A DNA stretch of 64,000 bases, from the NCBI RefSeq assembly GCF_014784055.1, contig NZ_CP061813.1, positions 273,501-337,500 of the forward strand, written 5' to 3'. Below are positions 57,654 to 60,224 of the stretch, piece after piece; position 1 is the first letter of the stretch; every line of letters starts with the position of its first letter. Position numbers and translations under genes: made by a program. Source of the DNA: Polaribacter haliotis (lineage in GTDB: Bacteria; Bacteroidota; Bacteroidia; Flavobacteriales; Flavobacteriaceae). Below the pieces are notes generated by a model that worked only from the letters and a program-made list of their open reading frames with translations, did no database searches and was not told the DNA's origin.

Positions 57654-60224
57654 TTGAATTTAGATTATCCAATTACATATATAAAAGGTATTAGTGTACA
57701 AAGAGCGGCTCTTTTGTATGCAGAATTGGGTATAAAAACATGCAACGATTTATTAAATTTATTTCCTTTTAGATATATTGATAAAACCCAGTTTTATGCA
57801 ATAAAAAATTTACAACCAAATTCTTCGGAAGTACAAATTGTTGGAAAAATTACACGTGTAAAATCCGTTGCTCAAAAAAGGGGAAGTAGGTTAGTAGCAT
57901 CGTTCCAAGATGCTTCTGGAACCATGGAATTGGTTTGGTTTAAAGGTCAAAAATGGATTAAAGATTCACTTAAAATTAATGAACCTTATGTGGTTTATGG
58001 AAAATTGAATCATTATAATGGTAATTTTAGCATTCCACATCCAGAAATGGAATTGGTTACAGAATACAAGAAAAAGTTGCAAACTAAAATGCAACCAGTA
58101 TATCCTTCCACAGAAAAATTAACGAATTCTGGAGTCTCTAATAAATTGATGCGTAATTATATCCAGAATTTGTTGCAACAGTTTTACGACGGAATTCAAG
58201 AAAGTTTATCGCAAGAAGTTTTAGAGGATTTTAAATTGATGAAAAAGCGAGATGCATTATTAAATGTGCATTTTCCTAAAAGTCAAGAAAATTTAGCGAA
58301 AGCACAAAATCGCTTAAAGTTTGAAGAATTATTTTTTATTCAATTACAATTATTGAGAAAGAAACTCATTAACAAAACTAAAAACAAAGGATTTATATTT
58401 GAAAATGTTGGCGAAGTTTTTAATCAATTTTATAGTGAAAAGTTACCTTTTGATTTAACAAATGCTCAAAAAAGAGTATTGAAAGAAATTCGAAAAGATG
58501 TTGCTTCAGGTGCTCATATGAATCGTCTTTTACAAGGAGATGTAGGTTCTGGAAAAACAATTGTTGCTTTATTAACCATGCTTTTAGCAATTGATAATGG
58601 TTTTCAAGCCACAATTATGGCACCAACAGAAATTTTGGCGAATCAGCATTTTACTGCAGTTTCAGAGCTTTTAGAAGGAATGGATATTAAAGTTGATATT
58701 TTAACTGGTTCTGTAAAAACAAAAAAACGAAGAGAAATTCACGCAAATTTAGAAGATGGAAGTCTACATATTTTGGTTGGAACACATGCTCTGTTAGAAG
58801 ATAAAGTGCAATTCAAAAATTTAGGAATTGCCATTATTGATGAACAGCACAGATTTGGTGTCGCACAAAGAGCAAAATTATGGATGAAAGGTGGCCCACC
58901 TCAATCCTCCCAAAGGGAGGAGGCCCAATCTGTGCGTGAAAAATATATGACTGCTCGTCCATCAGTTTATAAATTGATGAAAGAATTGCAAAAAGATAGA
59001 AAAAAACAAACTACAGAAGCTGAACAAATTCTTTGGGAGCAATTAAGAGCTAAAAAACTTGAAAATAAATTTAGGAGACAACATATTATTGATGAATTTA
59101 TAGTAGACTTTGTTTCAATTTCAAAAAAATTAATTATCGAGGTTGATGGAAAATATCACAACACAAAAGATCAAAAAGAGGCCGATGAATTAAGAACACA
59201 AATTCTTAAGGAACTAGGCTTTAAGGTGATAAGATTTAATAATGAAGAAGTTGTTGGGAATATTGAAAATGTTTTAGAAAAGATATCAGAAGAATTAAAA
59301 AGTTTACCACAAGAAGAAGAAAATAAGAGTAAGAGTTCCCTCCCTTTGGGAGGGTTAGGGAGGGCTTTTCTACCTCCCCACATTTTAGTAATGACTGCAA
59401 CACCAATTCCAAGAACTTTGGCAATGTCTGTTTATGGTGATTTAGATATTTCTGTTATAGACGAATTACCTCCAGGAAGAAAAGAAGTAAAAACGGTACA
59501 TCGTTTTGATAGCAACAGATTATCCGTTTTTAAATTTATGAAAGATGAAATTAATAAAGGAAGACAAGTTTATTTGGTATATCCATTGATTGAAGAATCT
59601 GAAGCTATGGATTACAAAGATTTAATGGATGGTTATGAGAGTGTTTCAAGAGAATTTCCTTCGCCAAAATATCAAATAAGTATTGTACATGGAAAAATGA
59701 AACCTGTAGATAAAGATTTTGAAATGCAACGTTTTGTTAAAGGTGAAACCCAAATTATGGTGGCAACAACTGTAATAGAAGTTGGTGTAAATGTACCCAA
59801 TGCAAGTGTTATGATTATTGAAAGCGCAGAACGATTTGGACTTTCTCAATTACACCAATTAAGAGGAAGAGTTGGGAGAGGAGCAGACCAAAGTTACTGT
59901 ATTTTATTATCGAGTTATAAATTATCTGAAGAAGCAAAAACACGTTTAAAAACGATGGTAGAAACCACAGATGGATTTAAAATTGCAGAAGTAGATTTAA
60001 AATTACGTGGTCCAGGAAATCTAATGGGAACTCAACAAAGTGGTGTTTTAAATTTGAAGATTGCAGATGTTGTAAAAGATTCCAAAATATTAGTAGCTGC
60101 ACGAAATACGGCGATTTCAATTTTACAAGAAGATGGTAACTTATCTCAAGAAAAAAATTTACCAATAAAAACAGCGTATACAAAAATGACCAAATCTTCT
60201 AAGATTTGGTCAAATATAAGTTAA
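57654..60224 (+). CDS. recG: ATP-dependent DNA helicase RecG with an in-frame nuclease insertion
   Basis: An 856-residue protein, about 160 longer than the usual ~700. The start is TTG (57654), giving MNLDYPITYIKGI. The wedge domain spans about 1-240; helicase domain 1 has Walker A QGDVGSGKT (about 285-300) and DEQH (396-399); motif III TATPIPR starts at 581; the C-terminal domain has RLRGPG-like RGPGNLMGTQQSG. RecG remodels stalled forks and recombination intermediates. The insertion (residues 414-572) carries a DUF559 endonuclease between motifs II and III. Removing those 477 bp leaves a 697-residue, standard-looking RecG. Whether both activities survive in the fusion is unknown. Confidence 0.9.
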   Translation: MNLDYPITYIKGISVQRAALLYAELGIKTCNDLLNLFPFRYIDKTQFYAIKNLQPNSSEVQIVGKITRVKSVAQKRGSRLVASFQDASGTMELVWFKGQKWIKDSLKINEPYVVYGKLNHYNGNFSIPHPEMELVTEYKKKLQTKMQPVYPSTEKLTNSGVSNKLMRNYIQNLLQQFYDGIQESLSQEVLEDFKLMKKRDALLNVHFPKSQENLAKAQNRLKFEELFFIQLQLLRKKLINKTKNKGFIFENVGEVFNQFYSEKLPFDLTNAQKRVLKEIRKDVASGAHMNRLLQGDVGSGKTIVALLTMLLAIDNGFQATIMAPTEILANQHFTAVSELLEGMDIKVDILTGSVKTKKRREIHANLEDGSLHILVGTHALLEDKVQFKNLGIAIIDEQHRFGVAQRAKLWMKGGPPQSSQREEAQSVREKYMTARPSVYKLMKELQKDRKKQTTEAEQILWEQLRAKKLENKFRRQHIIDEFIVDFVSISKKLIIEVDGKYHNTKDQKEADELRTQILKELGFKVIRFNNEEVVGNIENVLEKISEELKSLPQEEENKSKSSLPLGGLGRAFLPPHILVMTATPIPRTLAMSVYGDLDISVIDELPPGRKEVKTVHRFDSNRLSVFKFMKDEINKGRQVYLVYPLIEESEAMDYKDLMDGYESVSREFPSPKYQISIVHGKMKPVDKDFEMQRFVKGETQIMVATTVIEVGVNVPNASVMIIESAERFGLSQLHQLRGRVGRGADQSYCILLSSYKLSEEAKTRLKTMVETTDGFKIAEVDLKLRGPGNLMGTQQSGVLNLKIADVVKDSKILVAARNTAISILQEDGNLSQEKNLPIKTAYTKMTKSSKIWSNIS
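58906..58920. repeat. Left hairpin of the recG insertion's inverted repeat
   Basis: CCTCCCAAAGGGAGG is itself a hairpin. The surrounding 58895-58922 matches the reverse complement of 59337-59364 at 22 of 28 positions (counted by hand). Just outside lies GGTGG-C-CCACC (58890-58900). Confidence 0.8.
59338..59354. repeat. Right hairpin of the recG insertion's inverted repeat
   Basis: CCCTCCCTTTGGGAGGG is a perfect hairpin with 7-bp arms, followed by TTAGGGAGGGC. It is the inverted partner of the left end and stands out sharply in AT-rich DNA. Confidence 0.8.
60187..60212. terminator. Hairpin overlapping the recG stop region
   Basis: TGACCAAATCTT (60187-60198) and AAGATTTGGTCA (60201-60212) are perfect 12-bp arms separated by CT, lying in the last recG codons. 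There is no T-run afterwards, so termination would be weak. Confidence 0.5.

Follow-up and report, generated by a model that had tools for sequence, protein, structure and literature searches.

In-frame nuclease elements with palindromic ends: a probable class of mobile DNA that resides as translated domains in genes of Bacteroidota

We analysed a 64,000-nucleotide stretch of the Polaribacter haliotis genome (contig NZ_CP061813.1, positions 273,501 to 337,500; hereafter the window, whose own numbering is used throughout), in which the recG gene contains an in-frame element of 158 codons that lies between helicase motif II (DEQH) and motif III (TATPIPR) and encodes a DUF559 nuclease. The genome is 3.80 Mb long and consists of a single contig. 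The features at the locus are the following.

57654..60224, plus strand: recG open reading frame of 856 amino acids that holds the insert; the sole strong RecG match in the genome.
57654..58892, plus strand: part of recG upstream of the element, up to helicase motif II (DEQH); its model aligns to the RecG structure 1gm5.
58893..59366, plus strand: in-frame nuclease element of 474 bp, from GGCCC to GGGCT, delimited with the empty recG sites of congeners and the block shared by two metH copies.
58893..58923, plus strand: left terminal repeat, with the hairpin TCCTCCC-AAA-GGGAGGA (TCCTCCCAAAGGGAGGA) at 58905-58921; translated as GPPQSSQREE.
58989..59297, plus strand: DUF559 nuclease domain (PF04480), with the motif D..ExDGxxH intact.
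59336..59366, plus strand: right terminal repeat, with the hairpin CCCTCCC-TTT-GGGAGGG (CCCTCCCTTTGGGAGGG) at 59338-59354; translated as SLPLGGLGRA; it resembles solo palindromes elsewhere in the genome.
59367..60224, plus strand: part of recG downstream of the element, starting LPPHILVMTATPIPR (motif III); its model aligns to 1gm5.

An earlier note on this DNA had described an unbroken RecG of 856 residues that surrounds an apparently intact DUF559/Vsr-like nuclease, with translated, hairpin-bearing inverted repeats at the ends of the insert, and this description holds in each of these respects. One open frame runs from 57654 to 60224. Residues 446-548 of RecG match PF04480 with an E-value of 1.9e-31 (108.6 bits, against a curated cut-off of 20.6), flanked by the DEAD and Helicase_C matches, and the conserved acidic and histidine residues of the Vsr-type fold (Vsr / I-Bth0305I) are present. 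The inverted arms (58894-58920 and 59339-59365) are 27 nt long and 85% complementary, and the exact 15-bp arm was matched by 0 of 100 shuffled flanks. The sequence CCTCCCNNNGGGAGG occurs five times in the 3.80-Mb genome, and two of these occurrences are the ends of the insert. The nuclease part is 97% identical to a Polaribacter pectinis record. The insertion is in frame, as the note had stated, but the end given there (59369) takes in one codon (TTT) beyond GGGCT; because most empty congener sites read LWxKN-x-LPPHI, we place the element at 58893-59366 (474 bp), where it replaces about two host codons.

Is the nuclease segment a true insertion? With the front half of recG as the query, 57 congeners were reached, of which 54 were readable across the site: 16 were filled and 38 lacked the nuclease. 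The note had allowed that all relatives might share the insert with no copy elsewhere, or that the insert might be an assembly artefact; the majority of sites are in fact empty, copies lie in many unrelated genes, and the artefact is set aside because the RecG chimera recurs in many records. A protein search with the nuclease part returned 331 long proteins, and all 120 of those listed carry RecG-type helicase domains. The nuclease segment of recG is therefore a real insertion. No target duplication was found in filled and empty recG or ileS, nor at the two metH copies described below. On the host-protein tree of recG, for which 8 filled genes from other genera were also taken in, there are 13 changes between the filled and empty states, at least seven of which are forced by well-supported branches, and the state differs even between near-sisters (G036/G033 and G017/G054). 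In one congener (G006) the recG loop reads RKSLPFGEVGGAS, the peptide of one right-hand end retained in frame with the nuclease gone, that is, a solo-end remnant. The recG loops of two further genomes, G013 (L069; KGGKVEGFS) and G054 (L170; KSSSDGRA), are empty and a few codons longer than usual; they may be scars of lost inserts.

The element is not confined to recG. The note had suggested that coding-compatible nuclease elements lacking a splicing domain form a class, and had advised a search for further copies in flavobacterial genomes; such copies were found in many unrelated genes. DUF559 was matched in 41 of the 58 genomes searched in the genus, in 143 of 299 in the family and in 222 of 395 in the phylum. 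By frame length, the matches listed form two sets: DUF559 either stands as a free-standing gene, mostly of 120-220 aa, or is embedded in a long frame. Internal insertions were found in recG, leuS (two sites), ileS (two sites), valS, metG, metH (three sites), purL, murE, uvrA, recJ, addA/recB-like helicases, icmF, mazG, hutU and an ABC-F gene; in hsdR (several sites), hsdM and type IIG and ISP restriction enzymes; and in a GH31 glycosidase and an aldehyde dehydrogenase-MaoC fusion. DUF559 also stands at the N-terminus of hemD, hisF, hemF, gmk and rnhA and at the C-terminus of hisD, hutG and ispG. Of the best 80 loci in named genomes, 8 are free and the other 72 lie within a longer frame. When the nuclease part of a ValS chimera was used as the query, 1837 of 1987 candidates were long proteins; each of the 120 listed combines PF04480 with host domains. 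The hsdR gene at L254 contains, besides DUF559, a GIY-YIG nuclease domain in frame (residues 251-316), which suggests another nuclease type with the same way of life. At another locus (L130, in genome G130) two DUF559 genes lie 1.4 kb apart, identical over their aligned stretch, with a run of N between them.

Several host proteins contain more than one nuclease (19 of 240, by motif count). One MetH (P0121) holds three by Pfam, and one PurL (P0122) holds two together with a third copy that lacks the nuclease, all of them in frame. The latter, at residues of about 82-118, has kept both ends (APPSPPEGGDVGASATLMRSKSFRRFTSPPSGGLGEA) and resembles a miniature inverted-repeat transposable element (MITE) derived from the protein's full copies. 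The catalytic motif is intact in 166 of 179 embedded copies. A catalytically dead insert is found in leuS of P. haliotis itself (L002, frame residues 313-407), without terminal repeats; eight such copies were read, from P. haliotis and seven congeners, and further matches in the genus look alike.

The ends of the copies were examined with a strict hairpin test (perfect stem of at least 6, loop of 3-6; control windows 350 nt further out). Hairpins were found on the 5' side of 61 and the 3' side of 57 of the 114 embedded copies, and on both sides of 41, against 2/112 and 0/113 in the controls; for the free-standing genes the counts were 15/33 (5') and 26/33 (3'), against 2/32 and 2/30. Because the palindromes occur in differing reading phases, even among recG copies, it is the DNA palindrome that is conserved and not the peptide. 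Solo palindromes also occur: the P. haliotis genome contains 10 matches with at most three mismatches, one of which is the recG right end, and the reversed control gave 0. Of the other nine (L215, L216 and L218-L224), four overlap open frames of at least 120 aa and the rest overlap none. The solo unit is about 30 bp long, and there are two subtypes in this genome, AAGCCCACCCTAACCCTCCCAAAGGGAGG and AAGCCCATCCTAACCTTCCCAAAGGGAAG. On plasmids of cyanobacteria and Deinococcus, DUF559 genes lie between G+C-rich inverted repeats in three of the five cases examined, so the nuclease and the palindrome are associated across phyla; in two alphaproteobacterial cases the inverted repeats do not flank the DUF559 gene.

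The metH gene of one genome (G271; L098) offers our best evidence that the element may be copied to a new site. Its frame contains two copies of 418 bp each, identical at 345 of 418 positions. They resemble each other from AGCC precisely to GGCT, and beyond these points the flanks are unrelated. A length of 418 bp is not divisible by three, so the frame must have been kept by loss or gain of host sequence at the junctions and not by the element; metH relatives with empty sites have more loop codons at those sites. In ileS of one genus, three of 12 species are filled and nine lack the nuclease; the insert replaces ten codons (NADLIDKGTT or near) that are seen in eight of the nine nuclease-less species, and the ninth has a different repeat. 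Such different repeats stand in frame in element-receiving loops of ileS of G374 (L192), where the translation reads SRQPELVPGSHDEAPKQVRNDKK, and of metH of G072 (L149, site 2), where it contains RHAKLDSASQEN. On a tree of 93 nuclease domains, built from few columns and with many inner forks open, the recG, ileS, leuS, metH and hisD inserts and one hsdR insert form one clade (Shimodaira-Hasegawa-like approximate likelihood ratio support 98), separate from the free-standing genes, and the hemD inserts and a second hsdR insert form another (support 91). Both G271 copies lie inside the metH clade (100) on its shortest branches, and do not come out as a resolved sister pair. The leuS inserts are not one group (four changes).

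The insert is more alike than the host in two close recG groups (G000/G001 and G017/G021/G026) and in ileS. Between G000 and G001, silent differences were found in 5 of 156 codons of the insert, against 10/40 and 6/40 in the touching windows; between G021 and G026 they were found in 16 of 139, against 16/39 and 18/40. Silent divergence thus changes sharply at the insert edges in both pairs, among few pairs suitable for the comparison. These figures hint that the element alone has been exchanged among near relatives, with no general pattern.

We consider that these copies represent a class of palindrome-ended mobile nuclease elements that persist as translated domains, and we put the probability of this reading, together with the life cycle proposed below, at roughly three in four. 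The element spans about 420-480 bp, with two terminal repeats that each contain a G+C-rich palindrome and with the ends AGCC...GGCT, although recognisable ends are kept in only part of the copies; it encodes a single Vsr-like DUF559 nuclease stretch that is open through both ends, so that the terminal repeats are read as short linkers. Five things can be read directly in the sequences compared: the element resides in frame, its ends are defined, a second copy stands at a new site, a single end can be all that is left, and a copy can die without leaving the frame. In the proposed life cycle, the host gene would be read through to give a chimera in which RecG, LeuS, IleS, MetH and the like fold round a tethered nuclease. 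The nuclease, to judge from its fold and conserved residues, would cut or nick the empty copy of the site or new DNA, and repair of the break would copy the element in, often with replacement of host codons and without target duplication, the outcome seen at metH and ileS. In essential genes, only in-frame outcomes would survive. The element would then be hard to lose, and swaps against an empty allele, suggested by the patchy distribution, would be one of its fates; the other two, both seen, are shrinkage to a solo end and catalytic death with the frame kept. A stronger proposal, which we regard as an even bet, is that the nuclease and the palindromic ends are the element's own transposition machinery, which would copy a unit of less than 500 bp into unrelated genes and thus constitute a new class of transposable element that survives as a tolerated domain.

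A number of observations weigh against this reading. The filled state is clustered on the recG host tree, so few changes being found in only 3 of 500 shuffles (shuffled mean of about 19). Over all intact recG pairs the median silent divergence is 0.70 for the insert and 0.69 for the host, the insert is the less diverged of the two in just 17 of the 40 closest pairs, and the insert and host trees agree at deep nodes; because of this equal divergence, the agreeing nodes and the clustered label, much of the history of the recG insert appears to have been vertical. The seven pairs tested for excess similarity were chosen for closeness, and five of them gave p<0.01 and two gave p values of 0.06 and 0.09. 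About half of the embedded copies fail the strict hairpin test, and a plain inverted-repeat test, passed when at most 5 of 100 shuffles are as good, was passed by only 20 of 77 embedded copies (14 with G+C-rich arms), and by 12 of 19 free-standing ones. The metH-type end folds no better than shuffles (z -0.95). Since intragenic copies were recognised by their continuous frame, the statement that all are in frame is partly circular, and it has only two independent checks, one of them the strict hairpin test. The terminal copies in hemD, hisF, hemF, gmk, rnhA, hisD, hutG and ispG could be simple fusions. Finally, expression of the chimeras, cleavage by the nuclease, the copying reaction and the terms 'selfish' and 'mobile' are what we infer.

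The strongest rival is allele-specific homing as the main route, in which a nuclease lineage bound to each site cuts empty alleles and is copied via the conserved flanks, like an intein, so that jumps into new genes are rare. The Vsr-like fold and the patchy distribution agree with a predicted homing endonuclease. In the few suitable pairs where flank co-conversion could be checked, there was no sign of it, the G021-G026 windows that touch the insert being the more diverged; the leuS inserts are not a single lineage; genes that hold two or three copies at separate sites indicate movement beyond one site; and plain homing has no role for palindromic ends. We therefore regard homing as a serious but somewhat doubtful main route. 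Our estimates for the class with its life cycle, for transposition of its own and for site-bound homing overlap.

Next, the palindromes might be of the repetitive extragenic palindromic (REP) kind, moved by another enzyme acting in trans, with the nuclease a passenger between two of them. The solo palindromes with their blank reversed control, the nuclease-less two-ended copy in purL and the single-end remnant in recG of G006 all speak for such an origin, which we nevertheless judge unlikely: a search made for the Y1 (TnpA-REP) transposase, PF01797, and for no other enzyme gave no match in the P. haliotis genome but matched 5 of 14 controls, the plasmid DUF559 genes too lie between inverted repeats, and the nuclease motif is intact in 166 of 179 copies. 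Less probable still is ordinary domain fusion, in which a nuclease domain was recruited for the benefit of the host protein. The low ratio of nonsynonymous to synonymous change in the insert (from about 0.06 to 0.29 across the 40 closest recG pairs, with a further value of 0 that reflects saturation) fits such recruitment, and the dead leuS inserts are as constrained as the intact ones (median ratio 0.152 vs 0.156), which implies that a domain of this kind can be of consequence to the protein around it. Against it, the hosts have no function in common, ranging from tRNA synthetases through methionine and purine synthesis to the cell wall, repair and restriction; presence is patchy within genera; and DNA palindromes end many copies in varying reading phase. 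Removal of the insert ahead of function, whether as an intein or an intron or through ribosome bypass, is very improbable: hosts such as ileS are essential and single (one strong IleS match per genome), so that the product must work, but Pfam (E up to 1e-6) found no intein/Hint splicing domain either in the RecG chimera or in any other host scanned, Rfam gave no match at all to E 1 across 58700-59600, and so none to a group I/II intron ribozyme (less than 100 nt lies on either side of the domain), the frame and the nuclease codons are under purifying selection that none of these routes needs, and the predicted RecG core runs on across the insert (590 residues aligned to 1gm5, root-mean-square deviation 10.0).

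How does the element compare with known systems? Inteins also lie in frame in conserved, often essential genes, with an inner nuclease, a patchy distribution and dead copies that are retained (PMC3943268, available portion); the DUF559 insert differs in that it has no splicing domain, stays as an extra domain, has palindromic DNA ends and occupies several sites per gene, so that it fills the role of an intein but does not splice (a 'non-splicing intein'). The same portion describes I-Bth0305I as a Vsr-like (EDxHD) homing endonuclease with extra DNA-binding regions, and the corresponding structure, 3r3p in the Protein Data Bank, is named a mobile intron protein; the insert here has neither intron nor extra domain. 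Caulobacter VsrA, needed for the DNA-damage response on deletion of the methylase ScmA (PMC12907096, available portion), belongs to the same nuclease family, as do other free-standing DUF559/Vsr-like genes, and is a gene of its own instead of a domain in a host protein. Recombination hotspots reported in another bacterium include homing endonucleases and segments that carry DUF559 together with a transposase (PMC12308824, available portion). The comparison with Rickettsia palindromic elements made in the earlier note stands in so far as these are palindrome-bearing repeats translated in frame inside unrelated genes, and fails in other respects: those elements are about 150 bp long and encode a conserved peptide, with no nuclease mentioned in the available portion of PMC10969869, whereas the recG element measures 474 bp, carries a DUF559 nuclease and belongs to a group found across Bacteroidota. 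REP sequences and their associated Y1 transposases (RAYT) share with it short G+C-rich hairpins dispersed as solo copies; here, however, the palindromes end a nuclease element inside coding sequence in a genome without Y1. With DNA transposons and MITEs, the recG element and the metH copies share terminal inverted repeats, which many other copies no longer show, and the target site duplication is not seen. The element thus departs in some defining feature from every known family tested: it lacks the splicing domain, the ribozyme, the target duplication and the Y1 enzyme, and it carries a nuclease. A description of such in-frame nuclease elements was not found in the open-licence literature, and we rate this as a new kind of element; each of its two halves, the mobile nuclease and the coding palindrome, has precedents.

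The hiding places known for mobile nucleases are introns, inteins and the spaces between genes. The elements described here would represent a fourth way, in-frame insertion with no removal step into genes that cells cannot lose. Through them, nature would have tested many times over which loops of essential enzymes tolerate a domain of 150 residues; they would also be a source of new protein domains, and they make the old question of how palindromic repeats enter coding sequence testable with a candidate enzyme. For annotation they carry a warning, in that many filled RecG proteins are labelled just 'DUF559 domain-containing protein' in public records. If the proposed reading is true, aminoacyl-tRNA synthetases, MetH, PurL, RecG and restriction enzymes have been reshaped in this way throughout Bacteroidota, and nuclease-less palindromes in frame would arise from the same process.
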